64,000 nucleotides of DNA, from contig NZ_JANHAP010000011.1 of NCBI RefSeq assembly GCF_024734385.1, positions 1 through 64,000 on the forward strand. Reading direction: 5' to 3'. The notes below the pieces were generated by a model. The model had not been told where the DNA came from. It worked only from the letters and a program-made list of their open reading frames with translations, and did no database searches. The position numbers and the translations under genes are program-made. The stretch is from Dasania sp. GY-MA-18 (GTDB lineage: Bacteria > Pseudomonadota > Gammaproteobacteria > Pseudomonadales > Dasaniaceae). This document shows positions 17,499 through 61,138 of the stretch, piece after piece (the stretch's first letter is position 1; each line of letters opens with the position of its first letter).

Positions 17499-18179
17499 GT
17501 GAGCAGCGACCCCAGCAGCAACCCCAATACCCCGTCTAACAACAAACCCGGCAACAAAGCGCTTAATTTTCGCGTGGCCGAGTTTTTTACCAGCGCCCCA
17601 AAACTGGCCGACTGCCCCCCCGACATAGGGGTAGAGGTAGCCTTTGCGGGCCGCTCTAATGCCGGCAAATCCAGCTCTATCAATACCCTTACCGAAAATA
17701 AAAAGATGGCCCGCATCAGTAAAACGCCCGGGCGCACGCAGTTAATCAACTTTTTTAAATTAAGCGAAACACAAAGGCTGGTAGACCTACCGGGCTATGG
17801 CTTTGCCAAAGTACCGCTGGCCGTTAAAGAGAAATGGCAGCGCCACCTGGAGCAATACCTGCGCGAGCGCCAGTCATTAAAAGGCCTAATCCTATTAATG
17901 GACAGCCGCCACCCGCTGCAAGACTTTGACCGCATGATGATCAGCTGGGCGCAAAGCTGCCAGATGCCTGTACATATATTGCTCACCAAAAGCGACAAAC
18001 TTAAAAACGGCCCCGCCAAGGCCACACTGTTAAAAGTACGCAAAGAGTTTGCAGAAGATCAGCTAATCTCCGCCCAGCTGTTCTCCTCCCTCAAGCGCAC
18101 CGGCCTGCCAGAGCTTAGAGCGAAGTTGGGGGAGTGGCTGGGCCCTGCCCAGCCACAGCCGATAGACGCCAGTCTCTAG
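17499..18179 (+). CDS. engB: Ribosome biogenesis GTPase EngB (YihA/YsxC)
   Basis: This 226-residue essential-type GTPase assists late assembly of the 50S ribosomal subunit. G1 is 'GRSNAGKSS' (near residue 50), G3 lies in '[12 protein letters not shown]', and G4 is 'TKSDKL'. The start is GTG at 17499. A poorly conserved, proline- and asparagine-rich N-terminal 25 residues precede the '[17 protein letters not shown]' block. The stop codon TAG and the last codons fall inside a CTAG-heptad repeat, giving the C-terminus D-A-S-L. In Pseudomonas engB lies next to polA. Here polA is 40 kb away. Confidence 0.94.
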
Positions 18180-18229: not shown

Positions 18230-18334
18230 AAAAAAAACCCAGCGACGAAAACCGTGCTGGGTATAAGTAGTGTCTAAACATAGGGGATCAAGACACTGTG
18301 GAGACTTGGATGGGGAATGCATTGCATCCGCATG
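18230..18334 (-). ncRNA. Candidate small RNA 1 of a tandem pair
   Basis: On the minus strand this unit runs about 105 nt from a sigmaE-like promoter to a terminator (CCCAGC/GCTGGG hairpin at 18238-18261, then eight T). Just before the terminator is a second hairpin (18269-18297): 7-bp arms AGTGTCT and AGACACT around a loop containing ATCCCCTA. The neighbouring unit has the same loop motif but different stem bases, so the stem pairing is kept while its sequence is not. No open reading frame of note is present. The C-rich loop could pair with Shine-Dalgarno sequences (inference). Confidence 0.65.
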
Positions 18335-18339
18335 GTTAC

Positions 18340-18367
18340 TGTGACGCCACTATTCAATACTAGTTCC
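18340..18367 (-). promoter_or_regulatory. SigmaE/AlgU-like promoter of small RNA 1
   Basis: The minus strand reads GGAACTA, then 16 nt, then TCACA. The AlgU/RpoE consensus is GAACTT with a 16-17 nt spacer and TCTGA, so the spacing fits and most key bases agree. The same layout recurs at 18561-18588. Confidence 0.5.
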
Positions 18368-18389
18368 ATCCGCTATCAAATTATTTACT

Positions 18390-18441
18390 CTTGCCGCTTA
18401 CAGCTTATCGCTTGCCGCTGTTAAGCGCCCAGCGCTTAACT
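18390..18441. repeat. CTTNNNN heptad block plus hairpin
   Basis: CTTGCCG, CTTACAG, CTTATCG and CTTGCCG are followed by CTG and the inverted repeat TTAAGCGC/GCGCTTAA. It lies between the two small-RNA units. The same hairpin follows the block at 18610. Confidence 0.9.
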
Positions 18442-18451
18442 CCACCCCCAT

Positions 18452-18556
18452 AAAAAAACCCGGTCACGATTAACGCGCCGGGTCTAAAATGCGCCCTTAG
18501 GGGATGGGCGCTGTTCAGGGAGATCAGATCAAAAACAATGAATATTTCCGTTCTGC
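18452..18556 (-). ncRNA. Candidate small RNA 2 of a tandem pair
   Basis: This minus-strand unit of about 105 nt ends in a terminator (CCCGG/CCGGG hairpin at 18459-18482 followed by seven T). A hairpin at 18491-18511 has arms GCGCCC and GGGCGC around a loop with ATCCCCTA, the loop motif shared with unit 1. The bases at and just after the promoter are also similar between the units (GGCGTCA, AGTA). It lies downstream of the rpmG terminator, so transcription would need its own promoter. Confidence 0.65.
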
Positions 18557-18560
18557 ATAC

Positions 18561-18588
18561 TCTGACGCCCTACTTCTAACTTGGTTCC
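18561..18588 (-). promoter_or_regulatory. SigmaE/AlgU-like promoter of small RNA 2
   Basis: GGAACCA, a 16-nt spacer and TCAGA on the minus strand. The -10-like TCAGA and the -35-like GGAAC agree with the RpoE/AlgU pattern, and the geometry matches the promoter at 18340-18367 exactly. Confidence 0.5.
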
Positions 18589-18609
18589 ATCTCCCCCAAA
18601 TTATTTACC

Positions 18610-18661
18610 CTTGCCTCTTGCGGCTTAGAGCTTGCCACTGTTAAGCGCCCAGCGCTTAACT
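18610..18661. repeat. CTTNNNN heptad block plus hairpin
   Basis: CTTGCCT, CTTGCGG, CTTAGAG and CTTGCCA in 7-bp phase, then CTG and the TTAAGCGC/GCGCTTAA inverted repeat. It is a near copy of the block at 18390. Confidence 0.9.
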
Positions 18662-18670
18662 TTGAAGCAT

Positions 18671-18698
18671 AAAAAAACCCAGCACTAGGCTGGGTTTT
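18671..18698 (-). terminator. Terminator of the rpmB-rpmG transcript
   Basis: On the minus strand a CCCAGC/GCTGGG hairpin with a short loop is followed by seven T. It lies 18 bp beyond the rpmG stop codon. Confidence 0.9.
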
Positions 18699-18715: not shown

Positions 18716-18886
18716 TTACTTAATTTTCGCTTCTTTGTATTCTACGTGCTTACGAACAACAGGATCATACTTCTTGAACAACATCTTATCAGGAGTGTTG
18801 CGCTTGTTTTTGTCTGTTGTGTAAAAGTGACCGGTGCCGGCAGTTGAAACCAGACGGATGAGGTCGCGTGCGCCTTTTTTAGCCAT
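18716..18886 (-). CDS. rpmG: 50S ribosomal protein L33
   Basis: The translated 56-residue product begins '[20 protein letters not shown]' and is clearly L33. It has no zinc-binding cysteines, so it is the C-minus type. AAGGAG lies 8 bp before the ATG. It is the second gene of the rpmB-rpmG pair (11-bp gap) and is followed by a terminator. This conserved pair is standard in gammaproteobacteria. Confidence 0.97.
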
Positions 18887-18897
18887 GATCTAGCTCC

Positions 18898-19134
18898 TTA
18901 AACCTTTTCGCCACGAGCACGGATGTCAGCTAATACTGCATCTATACCCTTTTTATCGATGATACGCATACCTTTGCTGGTAACACGTAATGAAACAAAG
19001 CGTTTTTCAGCCTCAACCCAAAAACGGTGTTGGTGCAAGTTAGGTAAAAAACGACGCTTAGTGCGGTTTTTAGCGTGGGAAACGTTGTTTCCTGTTACTG
19101 GACGTTTGCCGGTAACTTGACATACTTTAGACAT
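18898..19134 (-). CDS. rpmB: 50S ribosomal protein L28
   Basis: The 78-residue protein starts '[20 protein letters not shown]', the family's standard N-terminus. The start at 19134 has AAGGGG about 11 bp upstream, and an in-frame ATG 27 bp further out has no support. It carries the usual basic, RNA-binding composition. It is transcribed with rpmG. The promoter should lie in 19135-19367, where I could not pick out a confident -35/-10. Confidence 0.97.
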
Positions 19135-19367
19135 GAGCTGAGCGCCCCTTTCAAATAGCAAATTAAAACTGGTGAGCCGGGCAAGCTACAAGGTCTATCC
19201 ATACTCAAAGAGCACTTTTTGGAGACTGTATGTGATCTCTATGTAGACCACCCCGAACAGAGCGCGACTTTATACCAGAACAGCTACCCCATATCAACCG
19301 AATGGAGAGAATTTAGCCAATTTAGCCCAATTTTCAGCCCAAAGCGGCTAATTAGCTCCATCCGGCC

Positions 19368-20042
19368 TCACAACAATCCGCGCTCGGCAAAAGACAGCGC
19401 CTCACCATCACCCACCACTATATGATCCAACACCCGTATTTCCACCGTCGCCAACGCCTCACATAAACGCTGGGTAATACGCTGGTCAGCTTGGCTGGGC
19501 TCGGCTACGCCACTGGGGTGATTATGGGCGAGGATAACAGCCGCAGCGTTATGTTTTAACGCCAACTTCACCACTTCGCGAGGGTAGACCGACGCCGCAT
19601 CTATGGTGCCGTAAAACAGCGGCTCGTAGTGTATAACCCGATGCTGGCTATCCAACAGCAGGCAGGCAAAGACCTCGCGGTGCTCATCCCTAAGGCAGGC
19701 GCGTAAATACTCACGGGTTAATTGGGGGCTGGTCAGCGCGTTAGACCGCCGCAGCTGTTCGCCCAAGTGACGGCGCGACATCTCCAACACCGCCTGCAGC
19801 TGGGTGTACTTGGCGGCACCTAAGCCCTTGGCGGCACAGAACTGATTTAAGTCGGTATTGAGCAGCTGCCGCAAGCCGCCAAAGGACTCCAGTAAATAGC
19901 GCGCCAAATCCACTGCGCTCATACCTTTGGTGCCGGTGCGTAAAAATATGGCTAATAATTCTGCGTCCGATAAGGCCGCAGCGCCTCTAGCTAACAGTTT
20001 TTCTCGGGGCCGCTCAGCCGCGGGCCAGTCTGTAATTGCCAT
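19368..20042 (-). CDS. radC: RadC/JAB-domain DNA repair-associated protein
   Basis: This 224-residue UPF0758-family protein has an N-terminal helix-hairpin-helix part ('[21 protein letters not shown]' region) and a C-terminal JAB/MPN metalloprotease-like domain with the zinc motif '[14 protein letters not shown]'. The family is called RadC, but its role in repair is unproven. The start at 20042 ('[17 protein letters not shown]') has GGAG 5-6 bp upstream. It is divergent from coaBC, as in Pseudomonas and E. coli. Confidence 0.93.
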
Positions 20043-20158
20043 CACCACTCCTTGTTTAGGCTTTATTCGTGCAATCCCCTGCACAGTTACTTACAATTCG
20101 CTGTTATTATGCAGCGCTTAATTTACTCCTTTATTGATTACTGGTCGACCCACAACCC

Positions 20159-21370
20159 ATGCAGCAATTAAACAACAAGCACATATTATTAGGCGTGACC
20201 GGCGGCATAGCGGCCTATAAAGCAGCCGAGCTAATACGCCGCCTCAAAGAGCACGGCGCCCATGTGCAAGTGGTTATGACTAAGGCCGCGCAGGAGTTTA
20301 TTACCCCACTGACCCTGCAAGCCCTATCGGGCAACCCGGTACACACCAGCCTGCTAGACCCTGAAGCCGAAGCGGCCATGGGCCATATAGAACTGGCCCG
20401 CTGGGCCGACCTAGTGCTGGTAGCCCCGGCCTCTGCTGACTTTATGGCCAGGCTAACCAACGGCCAAGCCGACGACTTACTCACTACTTTATGCTTGGCC
20501 ACCGATGCGCCTATAGCCATCGCCCCGGCCATGAACCAGGCCATGTGGCGAGACGCCGCCACCCAAAGCAATGCCGCTACCCTACAGGCCCAGCAGGTCA
20601 CTCTGTTTGGTCCCGGCGAAGGCGAGCAAGCCTGCGGCGATATAGGCCCCGGCCGCATGCTAGAGCCCGACCACATAGCCCAACTGACTGCCCAGCAATT
20701 TGCCAGCGGCAGCTTAGACGGCGTTAAGCTAGTGATTACCGCAGGCCCCACCATAGAGGCCATAGACCCGGTGCGTTTTATTAGCAACCACAGCTCCGGC
20801 AAGATGGGCTTTGCGCTAGCGCAAGCCGCCATAGACGCCGGTGCCAGCGTCACCCTGGTAGCCGGCCCGGTACACCTAGCCACCCCCGAACGCTGCCAGC
20901 GCATCAATGTACAAAGCGCCGAGCAAATGCTACAGGCCGTTAACGAACAACTTGATAGCTGCGATATTTTTATAGGCTGCGCCGCGGTTGCCGATTACCG
21001 CCCCGCCACCGTCGCCGAGCAAAAAATTAAAAAGAACGACGACAGCATGAGCATCACCCTAGTGCGTAACCCCGATATTATTAGCGTAGTGGCTAAACAT
21101 CAGCCCCGCCCCTTTTGCGTAGGTTTTGCCGCCGAAACTGAAAACCTCATCGCCCATGCGCAACAAAAGCGCATACGCAAAAACTTGGATATGATTATTG
21201 CCAACGATGTGGCTAACAGTGCAATAGGCTTTAACAGTGATAACAATGCCGCCACCTTGATCACCGCCCAAGGCGAGCACAGCCTGGCACTGGCCAGCAA
21301 AACACAGCTGGCGCGGGCAGCCATCGCCCACATAGCACAGCAGTTTAAAGCGGGTAATAAACCAGCCTAG
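20159..21370 (+). CDS. coaBC: Bifunctional phosphopantothenoylcysteine decarboxylase/synthetase
   Basis: This 403-residue enzyme carries out two steps of coenzyme A synthesis: ligation of cysteine to phosphopantothenate (CoaB) and its decarboxylation (CoaC). The N-terminal flavoprotein domain has '[17 protein letters not shown]', the active-site His in '[11 protein letters not shown]', and the conserved Cys in '[14 protein letters not shown]' near residue 161. The CoaB half starts near residue 190 ('[19 protein letters not shown]'). The dut gene that normally follows is absent: the next reading frame is the phosphomannomutase 79 bp on. Confidence 0.95.
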
Positions 21371-21449
21371 GCGCGAGCGGTCACTAAACCCAAAGGCGAG
21401 ATAGACTGGACAAGGGCGCTAACAGCTCCCATTATTTAACACCTAACCG

Positions 21450-23969
21450 ATGAGCTCTTTTTACGGGCAGCTGCCCAGATGGATAGTTATGGCTAAGCAA
21501 AAAAATAATAACAAAACCCCCACCGCAAAACCGCAAGACGCCATTAAGACCAACTTTATACGTTGCGCCTTAATAAGCCTGTTGGCAGTATGCGGCAGCT
21601 TTATCTACCTGGGCCTTATAGAGCAGCCCAAGTCCCAGCATAGTCAGCTCAACAACCTAGCCAATCGCCTAGCCGACAACCAAGTATTATTGCTTAATCA
21701 AGCTATAGACGATATTCAACGGCGCGCCAACCACTATGCCAAAAACCCGCAGCTATTAGCCGCCCTAGAAAACGGCGACTCTGCACGCTTAGTGACGTTT
21801 CAAATTGAAATTCAGCGCAGCTTTCCCCAAGCCATCAGCGCCAAGCTCATCCCCTTAGGCTCGCTAGGTATCGCCGGGCTGGATAAACAGCAAGCCGCCC
21901 TGCGCAACAACATAGAGCTAGATATGCTCAGGCGAGTCAGCAACGATGAGAAAGTGGCCATAGAGTCCTACCGCAGCAATAAACTCTCACTATTTACTTT
22001 TGCCGAAGCCATACAAGGCAAGGGCAAAAAATACGCCGCTGGCGCCCTGCTTATTAGCTATAACAATACCCTCTTGCACGAGCTGCTAAGCCTAGTCGAT
22101 AGCAACCTGGGGCAAACCACCTTGGTACAAACACTGAGCGGCAACAGCACCTTGGTTAAAATTGGTGATGCAGCGAGTAATGCCCCCACCATCAATCGCA
22201 GCACCGCGGTTAATCACTGGCAGCTTAGCTTCACGCCTTCAGCACAACTGGTCGCCAGCCTTAAACCAGCCATACCCCTGATTTGGATATTATTGGCCAT
22301 TGCTATCATCGCCATATTAGCTGCCACAGCGCTGACCCTAAGCGGTATCAAAAAAGCGATTAGCGACAACCTCGCCCTGCTGGCGGCCTATAGCAAAGGG
22401 CCTTTTAGCCTGCCCGGCTTTGAGGAAACCGCCCAGCAGTTGCAAGACGACAGGCAAAAACTGGAAGCGCAAGCCAAAAGAAAAGCCGCGGCCGCCAAAC
22501 CGGCAGAGCAGCCAGACGAAACCGCTGATGTTAATCCTGTAGCTGCCATCGCCGCCGAAATCGACAACGACGCAAGCCAGCCACCGGCACTACCACAGGA
22601 TATACCCGCCACCATTTTTAGAGCCTACGATATACGCGGCATAGCCGACCAAGAGCTCACCGACGAACACTGCCACGCCATAGGCCTGGCCATAGGCAGT
22701 GAAGCCCGCGACCAAGGCCAAGAGGCGCTGCTGGTCGCCGCCGATGGCCGCCACAGCTCGCCGCGTATACGCGACGCCCTGGCCAAGGGTATACAAGCCA
22801 GTGGCTGCGATGTCATAGACATAGGCATGGTGCCCAGCCCGCTGCTGTACTTTGCCACTCACCAATTAGAAACCCAAAGCGGGGTTATGATTACCGGCAG
22901 CCACAACCCCGCCGAATACAATGGTTTAAAAGTAGTGATTGCTGGCCATACCCTCTCCGCCGAGGGCATTACTGCCCTGCGTGAGCGCATAGTCAACAAT
23001 AAGCTACACAGCGGCAAAGGCGCCTACCGCACTGAGGCCATAGAAGAGGAATACATCGATTATATTATTAACGATGTCGCCATCGCCCAGCCGCTAAAAA
23101 TTGTTATCGATGCCGGCAATGGCGTCACCGGCAATATAGCCCCGCGCCTGTTTGAAGAACTGGGTTGTGAAGTGATCCCACTTTACTGCGAGGTGGACGG
23201 TGACTTCCCCAACCACCACCCCGACCCTACAGTGGCGGCCAACCTGCAGGATTTAATCGCCAAAGTTAAAGAAGAGGGCGCCGACCTAGGCATAGCTTTT
23301 GATGGCGACGGTGATCGCCTGGGTGTAGTCACCGCCGAGGGCAATATCGTCCCCGCTGATCGTTTACTGATGTTACTGGCGCAGGATGTGGTCTCCCGCA
23401 ATCCCGGCGCCGATGTTATTTTTGACGTCAAATGCACCCGCAGCCTCAATAGCTTAATCAGCAATTATGGCGGCCGCCCCATTATGTGGAAAACCGGCCA
23501 CTCCTTTATGAAAGAAAAAATGCTAGAGACCGGCGCGCTATTAGGCGGCGAGTTTAGCGGCCATATTTTCTTTAAAGAGCGCTGGTTTGGCTTTGACGAC
23601 GGCATGTATGCCGCCGCGCGTTTAATAGAGATTTTAAGCACCACCGACCCCGACCTGGATGCACAGCTCAGCGCATTCCCGTTAATGGTAAGCACAGCCG
23701 AATTAAAAGTAGCCAGCGATGAACAACGCAAGTTCAGTATTATTGAACAGCTCACCCAGCAGGGCCAATTTGAAAACGGCAAAATCACTACCTTAGATGG
23801 GGTGAGGGTAGACTTTAATGATGGCTGGGGTTTGGTTAGGGCCTCAAACACCACACCGATATTGGTGCTACGTTTTGAAGCCAAAGATCAGCAAACCCTG
23901 CAAAACATCCAGCAGATCTTTAAACAACAACTCAGCAATATAGACAACAGCTTACAGTTTGATTTTTAA
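21450..23969 (+). CDS. algC: Phosphomannomutase/phosphoglucomutase with membrane-anchored N-terminal extension
   Basis: The C-terminal ~460 residues are an alpha-D-phosphohexomutase of the AlgC type, interconverting mannose- or glucose-6-P and 1-P for polysaccharide precursors. The phosphoserine loop 'TGSHNP' has its Ser at residue 484, the metal loop is 'DGDGDR', and the sugar-binding loop is 'GGEFSGH'. The N-terminal ~380 residues carry a membrane helix at about 36-55, a periplasmic-sized region, a second helix at about 275-298 and an Ala/Lys-rich linker. Long AlgC forms like this occur in Pseudomonas relatives. The ATG at 21489 ('MAKQKNNN') is an alternative start and neither has a strong ribosome-binding site. 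It probably supplies ManC with mannose-1-phosphate. Confidence 0.92.
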   Translation: MSSFYGQLPRWIVMAKQKNNNKTPTAKPQDAIKTNFIRCALISLLAVCGSFIYLGLIEQPKSQHSQLNNLANRLADNQVLLLNQAIDDIQRRANHYAKNPQLLAALENGDSARLVTFQIEIQRSFPQAISAKLIPLGSLGIAGLDKQQAALRNNIELDMLRRVSNDEKVAIESYRSNKLSLFTFAEAIQGKGKKYAAGALLISYNNTLLHELLSLVDSNLGQTTLVQTLSGNSTLVKIGDAASNAPTINRSTAVNHWQLSFTPSAQLVASLKPAIPLIWILLAIAIIAILAATALTLSGIKKAISDNLALLAAYSKGPFSLPGFEETAQQLQDDRQKLEAQAKRKAAAAKPAEQPDETADVNPVAAIAAEIDNDASQPPALPQDIPATIFRAYDIRGIADQELTDEHCHAIGLAIGSEARDQGQEALLVAADGRHSSPRIRDALAKGIQASGCDVIDIGMVPSPLLYFATHQLETQSGVMITGSHNPAEYNGLKVVIAGHTLSAEGITALRERIVNNKLHSGKGAYRTEAIEEEYIDYIINDVAIAQPLKIVIDAGNGVTGNIAPRLFEELGCEVIPLYCEVDGDFPNHHPDPTVAANLQDLIAKVKEEGADLGIAFDGDGDRLGVVTAEGNIVPADRLLMLLAQDVVSRNPGADVIFDVKCTRSLNSLISNYGGRPIMWKTGHSFMKEKMLETGALLGGEFSGHIFFKERWFGFDDGMYAAARLIEILSTTDPDLDAQLSAFPLMVSTAELKVASDEQRKFSIIEQLTQQGQFENGKITTLDGVRVDFNDGWGLVRASNTTPILVLRFEAKDQQTLQNIQQIFKQQLSNIDNSLQFDF

Positions 23970-24020
23970 CCCTTGTTTTATTGCGGCGCTTTCTTCGCAC
24001 TAGCTATCGCAGTGTTTTAG

Positions 24021-24962
<942 letters not shown>

Positions 24963-53343: not shown

Positions 53344-53488
53344 CCTCATTCTCATAACCAGACTGTAACTGTCGGCCCCGGAATCACACCGAGTCTGCTT
53401 GTCCCCCCGCCAGATGATGACGAGAGCGCCCGCGGGCTACGCACTTACGTACGATTACCGCCGGTGGGGACTTTCACCCCGCCCTGAG
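53344..53488 (-). promoter_or_regulatory. FMN riboswitch (RFN element)
   Basis: Read on the minus strand, conserved RFN blocks occur in order: CTCAGGGCGGGGTGAAAGTC, CCCACCGGCGGTAATC, AGCCCGCGGGCGC, GGTGTGATTCC, GGGGCCGACAGTTACAGTC and GGTTATGAGAATGAGG. These are the characteristic stems and junctions of the FMN aptamer. FMN binding would repress ribH. A CTTCCCC/GGGGAAG hairpin precedes it at 53491-53510. Confidence 0.97.
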
Positions 53489-53627
53489 AACTTCCCCTAT
53501 TTGGGGAAGGCGCACAGATTAGCCTAATCGCGGGTTGAGCTCAACTAGGATAGAGGGTTGGAGGTTTGCGGGTGGGCTTTAAGGGGCGGGGACTTATAGC
53601 TCAACAATTCTGCTTCCTTGATTTATA

Positions 53628-58013: not shown

Positions 58014-58396
58014 AATTTTGAGATACTCCTCTTCTGAAATCTAACAGTTTTATTAAAACGAATGGCCACATATAAACATAATGTCTAGATCTAGGCAAAA
58101 AAGTCTAAACCTGTATTTTTATGTCCATATCTGACTACGCCTTTATGGTTACATCTGCCTATTAAACCTACTTTATTTTTAAGCAAGAAAACTGCTGATA
58201 TTCAGCTGTGTATTACCACTACACTTTTAATTATCGATACAAAAGTACCCGTTGCTTTTTTATTTGCCACACTTAAATATGGCTTTTACATTTACCGTAA
58301 TACCCCCCTCAAAAAAACCACCACCCTCCTAGCTTTTATCTTTTTCTTACCACTTGCCGCTTGCAACTTCCCGCTGCTGAGCGCCTAGCGCTCAGC
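58014..58396. other. Region between the cassette array and polA
   Basis: An AT-rich stretch of about 380 bp with no gene. The core GTTAGAT (58039-58045, minus strand) is a candidate attI-like junction. A CTTNNNN heptad block ends it at 58346. No integrase remnant was recognised. Confidence 0.55.
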
Positions 58397-58397
58397 C
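58346..58397. repeat. CTTNNNN heptad block plus hairpin
   Basis: CTTACCA, CTTGCCG, CTTGCAA, CTTCCCG, then CTG and a CTGAGCGC/GCGCTCAG hairpin that reaches the polA stop codon. Confidence 0.9.
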
Positions 58398-61138
58398 TAA
58401 TGCGCCTCATCCCAATTAGCCCCAAAGCCCACATCAGCAATCAACGGCACATCTAACTTGGCCGCCGCAGCCATGCGCGCTACTACGCCATCACACAGTG
58501 CTTGCTTGTCTGCCTCGGCTACTTCAAACACCAATTCATCGTGTACCTGCATAATCATGCGGGCGTCTAAGCCCGATGCTGGTAGCCAGGCTTGCACTTG
58601 CACCATGGCTTTTTTGATGATGTCGGCGGCGGTGCCTTGCATGGGGGCGTTGATGGCGGTGCGCTCGGCGGCTTGGCGGCGCATGCCGTTGGAGGCGTTA
58701 ATTTCGGGCAAGTACAGGCGGCGGCCAAACAGGGTTTCTACATAGCCTTTTTCGGCGGCCTGTTCGCGGGTGTTTTCCATGTACTGCATTACGCCAGGGT
58801 ATTTGGCGAAGTAGGCATCCATATAGGCCTGCGCTTCGTTGCGGCCTATGTTGAGTTGTTTGCCTAGGCCAAAGGCCGACATGCCGTAAATTAAACCAAA
58901 GTTTATGGCCTTGGCGCTGCGGCGCTGTTCGCCCGACACTTGCTCTAGCGGCACACCAAATACTTCTGAGGCGGTGGCCTTGTGCACATCTAAACCTTTT
59001 GAAAATGAGTCTAGCAAACCTTTATCTTGCGAGAGGTGGGCCATAATGCGCAGTTCGATTTGCGAGTAGTCGGCGGCCACGATGATATTACCCGGCCCGG
59101 CGATAAAGGCCTGCCTAACCCGGCGGCCTTCGTCGGTGCGTATGGGTATGTTTTGCAGGTTGGGGTCTGAGGAAGATAAACGCCCGGTGGCGGTCACCGC
59201 CTGATGGTAGGAGGTGTGTATGCGGCCGGTGTGCGGGTTGATCATCTCCGGCAGTTTATCGGTGTAAGTGGACTTGAGTTTGCTCAGGCCACGGTGCTCC
59301 ATTAATAACTTGGGCAGCGGGTAATCCAGGGCTAACTCGGCCAGCACTTCCTCGGCGGTAGAGGGTGCGCCTTTGGGGGTTTTTTTAATCACCGGTATGG
59401 CCAGCTTTTCAAACAGTATGCGGCCCAGCTGCTTGGGCGAGCCCAGGTTAAACTCCTCACCGGCTAGCTCGTAGGCTTCGCGCTCTAGTTCGGTAAGGCG
59501 GGCGCTGATCTCGGCGCTTTGCTGGCCTAATAGCTCGCGGCTAACCAGCGCGCCGTTCATTTCTATATCCGATAGCACTTCCACCAGAGGCAGCTCTATC
59601 TCTTCAAAGACTGACTTCAAACTGGGCTCGCGCGCTAGCCGCGGCCACAGGGTTTGATGCAGGCGCAGGGTAATGTCGGCATCTTCGGCGGCGTAGGGGC
59701 CAGCTTGCTCTAACTCGATTTGGTTAAAGGTGATTTGCTTGGCGCCCTTACCGGCTATGTCCTCGTAGTGTATGGTTTTGTGATCCAAATAAAACGAGGC
59801 CAGGTCGTCCATATTATGGCGGCTGGCGGTGGAGTTAAGCACGTAGGATTCCAGCATGGTATCAAAGGCTATGCCCTGTAGCTTAATGCCGTGCTTGGCC
59901 AATACCGACCTATCGTATTTTAGGTTTTGCCCCACTTTGGCTTTGTTGGCGTCTTCTAATATGGGTTTTAGCTTGGCTAGCACTAGCTCTTGGCTAAGCT
60001 GCTCGGGCACGCCTAAGTAGTCGTGGCCAAAAGGTACGTAGGCGGCTTGGCCCGCCTCTACCGCAAAGCTCACCCCCACCAATTTGGCCTCCATATAGTT
60101 GAGGCTGGTGGTTTCGGTATCAAAGGCAATCAGCTCGGCGGCTTGTAAGCGTTGCAGCCATTCATCCAGCTGCGCCTCGGTAAGTATGGTTTGGTAGTCC
60201 ACCTCGGCCACTTTTTCGGCCGCGCTATCAACACCGCCGCCCTCTTTAAGAGGCTGGCTGTATTCATCCATCCAGCCTTTAAATTCTAATTCGGTAAACA
60301 GCTCTAGTAAGCGCGCCCGGTCTTCTGCGGCCATCACCAAGTCTTGCGGGCCTAACTCCAGCGCTACGTCCAGCTTGATTGTGGCCAGCTCATAGGAGAG
60401 AAACGCCAGCTCACGGTTGGCCTCTAGCTTTTCGTGCATTTTTTTAGCGCCGCGAAACTCTAAGCCGGCGACTTTATCGAGGTTGTTATAAATATTCTCT
60501 AAATTGCCTAGGCCTTGCAGCAGCGCCAGTGCGGTTTTTTCACCTACGCCGGGTACGCCGGGAATATTGTCTACCTTGTCGCCCATTAGCGCTAAGTAGT
60601 CGATGATTAGCTCGGGGGGCAGGCCAAACTTTTCTTTTACGCCCTCTACATCCATTACCGTTTCGGTCATGGTGTTGACCAAGGTAACGTGTTGGTTAAC
60701 CAGCTGGGCCATATCTTTATCGCCGGTGGATAACACCACATCTATGCCCTGCTCGGTAGCCTGCTGGGCCAGGGTGCCCATGACATCGTCGGCCTCTACC
60801 CCTTCTATTACTAGCAGCGGCATACCCATGGCTTGCACTATATTGTGTATGGGCTCTATTTGCGGGCGCATATCGTCGGGCATGGGCGGGCGATGGGCCT
60901 TGTACTCGCTGTATATCTCATCCCTAAAGGTTTTGCCCTTGGCATCAAATACCACCGCTATGGTGCTGCCGGGGTAATCCTGCTTTAGCCTGCGCAACAT
61001 ACTGGTAACGCCCCGTATGGCCCCCACCGGCTCACCCTTAGAGGTGCGTAAGTCGGCTTTGTACATGGCGTGAAAGGCACGGTAGAGATAGGAAGAGCCA
61101 TCAACGAGTACCAATGGCTGAGTAGAGCTTTGTGACAT
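58397..61138 (-). CDS. polA: DNA polymerase I
   Basis: This 913-residue protein has the three usual domains: N-terminal 5' nuclease ('[20 protein letters not shown]'), 3'-5' exonuclease ('[20 protein letters not shown]', with intact acidic residues), and polymerase with motif A '[14 protein letters not shown]', the O-helix '[19 protein letters not shown]' and motif C '[10 protein letters not shown]'. It fills repair gaps and removes RNA primers. ATG 61138 was chosen over one 18 bp upstream on family grounds; neither has a strong ribosome-binding site. It is divergent from thrB. Confidence 0.97.

Follow-up and report, generated by a model that had tools for sequence, protein, structure and literature searches.

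The sRNA locus 3' of engB

In the window, that is, the whole 64-kb stretch of DNA analysed, the engB/yihA gene encoding a YsxC-type GTPase occupies positions 17499–18179 of the plus strand and marks the position at which ErsA is found in Pseudomonas. Sequence inspection located two small RNA (sRNA) units 3' of engB, convergent with it on the minus strand, unit A at 18556–18452 and unit B at 18334–18230, with a repeat period of 220–221 bp. The two units of about 105 nt with a hairpin, a AUCCCCUA loop and a terminator described in the initial annotation were all found in the sequence and in the predicted folds. Unit B contains the C-rich segments UUCCCCAU (18310–18317) and GUCUCC (18300–18305), the P3 hairpin AGUGUCU-UGAUCCCCUAUGUUU-AGACACU (18269–18297, minus strand) with its AUCCCCUA loop at 18281–18288, and an intrinsic terminator (18231–18262, minus strand). 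Unit A contains the segment AUCUCCCUGA (about 18515–18524), which includes the anti-hemB-like CUCCCUGA, the P3 hairpin GCGCCC-AUCCCCUAA-GGGCGC (18491–18511, minus strand) with AUCCCCUA at 18498–18505, and an intrinsic terminator (18452–18483, minus strand). In both terminators, seven or eight U follow a G+C-rich hairpin. The P3 hairpin of each unit is present in the minimum-energy fold, and the fold stability compared with shuffled sequences gave z values of −3.9 (unit A) and −2.7 (unit B). Both ancestral C-rich motifs are retained in unit B, and the 5' UUCCCC segment has been lost from unit A.

A sigmaE-type promoter precedes each unit on the minus strand. That of unit A (18561–18588) is composed of GGAACC (18583–18588), N16 and GTCAGA (18561–18566), with an inferred start at about 18555, and that of unit B (18340–18367) of GGAACT (18362–18367), N16 and GTCACA (18340–18345), with an inferred start at about 18334. 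These were the only two sites matching the strict sigmaE/AlgU motif GGAAC[C/T]-N16-GTCA[G/C]A within the 64-kb window, and a sigma-70 promoter scan gave no site at either unit; the promoter-like starts seen earlier are thus real, but of the sigmaE type and not of the sigma-70 type. The genome also has genes for RpoE (TIGR02939, over cut-off) and for Hfq.

Since engB ends nearby and rpmG (about 18716–18886, minus strand) has a similar terminator of its own upstream of unit A (about 18671–18698, minus strand), the units could be regarded as mere structured repeats of a terminator, or as read-through terminators serving rpmG and engB, without regulatory function. This is very improbable, because each unit has its own sigmaE promoter and contains a further hairpin that is not a terminator and has a conserved loop, and because the units are conserved across genera despite differing neighbours (polA, rpmG or another gene). 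Still less probable is a coding role for unit B, as a small mRNA or a dual-function RNA from which MRMQCIPHPSLHSVLIPYV would be translated. The 19-codon frame in question (18322–18266) is of equal length and open in both members of the genus, but it lacks a ribosome-binding site, nothing corresponds to it in unit A, and the differences between the species alter five residues with one changed codon synonymous, so that there is no sign of purifying selection on the protein and the small ORF was rejected.

A 65-nt spacer with a GTTAAGCGC palindrome (18377–18441, strand unassigned) is 89% like a second copy upstream of unit A (18597–18661, strand unassigned), a likeness exceeding that of the sRNAs themselves. 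This spacer is probably a dispersed genomic repeat and not part of the sRNA. The dispersed repeat is made of imperfect AGCTTATCGCTTGCCGCT units and a GTTAAGCGC...GCGCTTAAC palindrome and occurs in many copies in both members of the genus; a related palindrome follows polA at about 58345–58400.

The polA gene, next to which such sRNAs are usually found, lies at 58400–61114, 40 kb from the units, and no sRNA was found beside this relocated polA. Adjacency to polA is common but not universal among relatives, polA also not being seen beside the single copy of the genome G002. In the region 18716–24962 the engB-sRNA block is joined to an rpmG-rpmB-radC-coaBC-algC-argB block, which, with polA at its distant position, points to a rearrangement.

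Relatives of the units in the genus and family

The one further genome of the genus (G001, locus L010) has both units as well, and a DNA similarity search gave matches from the same genus only. The orthologues of the two species are 91% (unit A) and 87.5% (unit B) identical, and the paralogues A and B are about 57–65% alike; given this difference of 35–43% between A and B, the duplication predates the split of the two species. The P3 stem of unit A changes between the species from GCGCCC/GGGCGC to GUGCCC/GGGCAC, a compensatory change by which pairing is kept.

The sister genus has one sRNA, located between polA and engB, whose promoter and arrangement are the same: a 5' hairpin, the C-rich UUCCCC, GUCUCC, a hairpin with a C-rich loop and a terminator. 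Since MAFFT alignment of whole transcripts across genera put hairpins in wrong places, a closer set was used for the covariance model, and the P3 arms were tabulated by hand. The model was built from the single-copy polA-engB sRNAs of G003, G005, G006 and G007, with the genus of the window excluded, and gave exactly two matches in the window, unit B (33.5 bits, E 6.4e-8) and unit A (23.3 bits, E 5.7e-5), these E-values being rough because the calibration was short. Over 54 genomes, it found two copies in G000 and in G001, one in each of G002–G008, and a weak match away from engB in G024; one copy visible by eye in G009 was missed, and thus the model matches seven of the eight other genomes of the family. 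The search in related genomes proposed in the initial annotation therefore recovered both units with a model from a sister genus, establishing covariance-model homology to polA-engB sRNAs outside the genus, and the conservation that it had called for was observed as a pair in both genomes of the genus and as single copies in sister genera.

The engB-locus sRNA is named ErsA in Pseudomonas, sX13 in Xanthomonas and anti-hemB in Burkholderia. At gathering score no Rfam family matched the units, and the sole match in the window was an FMN riboswitch (RF00050) at 53344–53495 (minus strand). Under its cut-off of 49.5 bits, RF02837 matched unit A with 28.8 bits (E 1.6e-4 over the 3.8-Mb genome, in which this is the sole match) and unit B with 14.7 bits. 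In a lenient search (E ≤ 5), RF01719 and RF02232 (cut-off 50 bits each) gave no match to either unit, and RF02232 gave none in the units' own genome. The pair, whose sequence had initially not been recognised, is a relative of ErsA, anti-hemB and sX13. The region 18230–18556 very probably represents two tandem, diverged paralogues of a sigmaE/AlgU-dependent sRNA encoded 3' of engB, usually next to polA, in many Gammaproteobacteria, which would act by sigmaE-induced pairing of C-rich loops with ribosome-binding sites. This kind of sRNA is already known; the duplicated, polA-detached pair in this genus is new.

The units resemble ErsA of P. aeruginosa (RF01719) in lying 3' of engB on the opposite strand, in having a promoter of the sigma22/AlgU (sigmaE) type, and in being multi-hairpin RNAs in the range of 100–140 nt with C-rich loop segments in a genome that encodes Hfq, but ErsA is present in Pseudomonas as a single copy next to polA, whereas here there are two copies with polA far removed. 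Unit A shares with anti-hemB (RF02837, Burkholderia/Nitrosomonas) the CUCCCUGA segment, the second hairpin, the terminator and, in Nitrosomonas, the engB position; unlike in anti-hemB, the first hairpin is not formed in unit A, and the score stays below the cut-off. The sX13 RNA (RF02232, Xanthomonas) is likewise a polA-locus sRNA with CCCC apical loops, for which loop-to-GGGG pairing serves as the working model, but it is Hfq-independent and no sigmaE-type motif was present at the three top sX13 loci. Spot 42 (spf) of E. coli has the same polA-engB intergenic position (PMC3771888; PMC3349714) but is under cAMP-CRP control instead of sigmaE, and its family (RF00021) was not among the Rfam matches at E ≤ 5 in the window. 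The RNA ncS35 (PMC5760752) was rejected as a counterpart on account of its different locus.

The initial annotation had compared the layout with PrrF1/PrrF2, which are also tandem paralogous sRNAs. The PrrF copies are nearly identical and iron-responsive. The tandem layout is indeed shared, but the copies described here are diverged and have sigmaE promoters, and no Rfam match to the PrrF family was obtained in the window, either at gathering score or in the lenient search.

Conserved loops, changing stems and the recurrence of the locus across the class

Complete difference of the stem bases, from which RNA-level selection had first been argued, holds between the two paralogues, but taken alone it depends on a loop-anchored alignment, and homologues elsewhere are the proper test. 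Among 32 engB-locus transcripts, 48 of 77 C-rich runs (62%) were located in hairpin loops, as compared with 17% (sd 5%) in dinucleotide shuffles, and in many genera the C-rich loop is retained on stems that pair although their sequences are unrelated. When the P3 arm of one genome was set against the arm of another, 39% pairing was found; the hand-made table pairs at 100% by construction, so that its informative parts are the variety of stems and this cross-pairing value only. With the matching of both units by a model from another genus, the enrichment of C-rich loops upholds the view of paralogous sRNAs under RNA-level selection.

RF01719 (Pseudomon-1/ErsA) was found at the engB position in Halopseudomonas, P. 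neustonica and G102, a genome of the order, and RF02837 at the engB position in Nitrosomonas; other members of the order gave sub-threshold scores on RF01719, RF02232 or RF02837 at this position. Across the class, 145 of 321 genomes had an RF02837 match at E ≤ 0.001, 15 of them above the curated cut-off. At the loci of the top RF02837/RF02232 matches in Gammaproteobacteria, engB was adjacent in 20 of 45 and convergent in all of these 20, and engB and/or polA lay within 1.5 kb in 32 of the 45. A loose sigmaE motif preceded 21 of 41 loci of this kind, whereas random windows drawn from these loci gave an expectation of 0.7 (sd 0.75); no sigmaE-type motif was found ahead of the three top sX13 loci. 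A crude promoter and terminator scan 3' of engB in 95 loci of the order gave 22 hits on the same strand as the units, two on the opposite strand and none in shuffles. Tandem arrays were detected in several genomes, with two copies in G255, G297, G299 and G410 and four in G319, G411 and G426, and one copy of G319 scored on both sX13 (48.3 bits) and anti-hemB.

The four-copy arrays (L331 of G319, L336 of G426 and G411:C3:217579-218301) are anti-hemB/sX13-like with C-rich loops, and those of G319 and G426 sit between polA and engB. A further family of the order has two successive sigmaE-promoter/terminator units 3' of engB (L166 of G066), possibly a second, independent duplication.

It is unlikely that the sRNAs are of independent origin and converged on sigmaE promoters and C-rich loops, so that the units would be neither paralogues nor kin of ErsA, sX13 or anti-hemB. 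Outside the promoter, terminator and loops the similarity of A and B is low, RF01719 does not match the units, and C-rich loops evolve easily, as exemplified by LhrC of Listeria (PMC4132741). LhrC1-5 of L. monocytogenes resemble the units as multicopy, envelope-stress-induced RNAs with C-rich (UCCC) segments but are Gram-positive, LisRK-controlled and encoded at an unrelated locus, so that the analogy is functional only. Against independent origin, a single model from the sister genus matches both units end to end, the locus and orientation recur across the class, and bridging genomes exist, as in the doubly scoring copy of G319.

Common descent of the whole set (ErsA, anti-hemB, sX13 and this pair) is likely on the sequence evidence, but the short length and fast evolution of the sequences outside the loops stand in the way of a proof. 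On balance we favour, with some reserve, one ancestral class-wide and mostly sigmaE-controlled polA-engB sRNA gene, in which the loops would have remained constant while the stems turned over freely, and which some lineages, including this genus, would have expanded into tandem arrays with copies partitioning targets. One locus holds sRNAs now filed under three Rfam entries (RF01719, RF02837 and RF02232), and such a locus-wide family is a more interesting outcome than the pair alone. The authors of the sX13 study had pointed out that other bacteria also have sRNAs at polA, and they asked whether structurally related sRNAs with C-rich loops exist at the polA locus elsewhere (PMC3771888). For many families of Gammaproteobacteria the answer is yes, and about half of the top loci show control of the sigmaE type. 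No paper uniting ErsA, anti-hemB and sX13 was found in a search that took in a minor part of the subscription literature; the sequence evidence that the three occupy one locus, share a layout and cross-match appears to be new.

Proposed mode of action and targets

By analogy with the studied relatives, the units are most likely sigmaE-induced translational repressors acting through pairing of C-rich loops with G-rich ribosome-binding sites. Envelope stress would activate RpoE, which would transcribe both RNAs, and their stability may be owed to Hfq and the terminator U-tract. The exposed C-rich segments (AUCCCCUA, UUCCCCAU and G/AUCUCC) could then base-pair with several mRNAs at ribosome-binding regions that are rich in G, and translation would thereby be blocked. 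Duplication would raise the dose and let the copies differ in their targets, since B keeps the 5' UUCCCC and A carries the anti-hemB-like segment. Binding of Shine-Dalgarno regions by the C-rich loop, as first suggested, is a prediction that agrees with experiments on sX13 (PMC3771888) and ErsA (PMC8395346, PMC6321483). ErsA needs sigma22, and its repression of algC involves Hfq and pairing at the ribosome-binding site (PMC8395346, PMC6321483). In sX13, encoded at polA, the CCCC loops and the GGGG motifs near target starts are required for repression, which takes place without Hfq, and mutations in the loops or in the G-motifs of the targets abolish regulation (PMC3771888).

In a target search based on the loop, UAGGGGA before ATG showed no enrichment in the two genomes of the genus: 29 and 31 sites were counted, and the reversed-pattern control gave 48 in each. 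This lack of an enriched target set, together with the multiple short C-rich loops and the tandem copies, which suit titration, would fit units serving mainly as decoys or sponges for Hfq or a C-rich-binding factor instead of pairing with mRNAs. We consider such a role quite unlikely, because conserved apical loops on rigid stems with 7–8 nt of complementarity to ribosome-binding sites fit base pairing, and because of the effects of the sX13 loop and target mutations. Repression by loop pairing is the preferred reading, by which an anonymous pair of hairpins becomes a testable candidate regulator of the envelope stress response, and with tandem pairs such as this one it can be tested directly whether copies with different loops divide the targets between them.

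The rsd/algQ leader held the only UAGGGGA-before-ATG site conserved in both members of the genus, and chance could give one such site; the sister genus lacks this G-rich motif, which makes the leader a weak lead. The leaders of the two species (L269 and L262) carry an identical UUAGGGGACUUACUAUG, of which 8 nt are complementary to the loop of unit A. Known targets of ErsA include algC, oprD, amrZ and anr. No convincing pairing of the algC leader (21371–21490) with the units was seen by eye. The algC gene itself (21450–23969) lies 3 kb from the units, and its product has a long N-terminal extension (839 aa).
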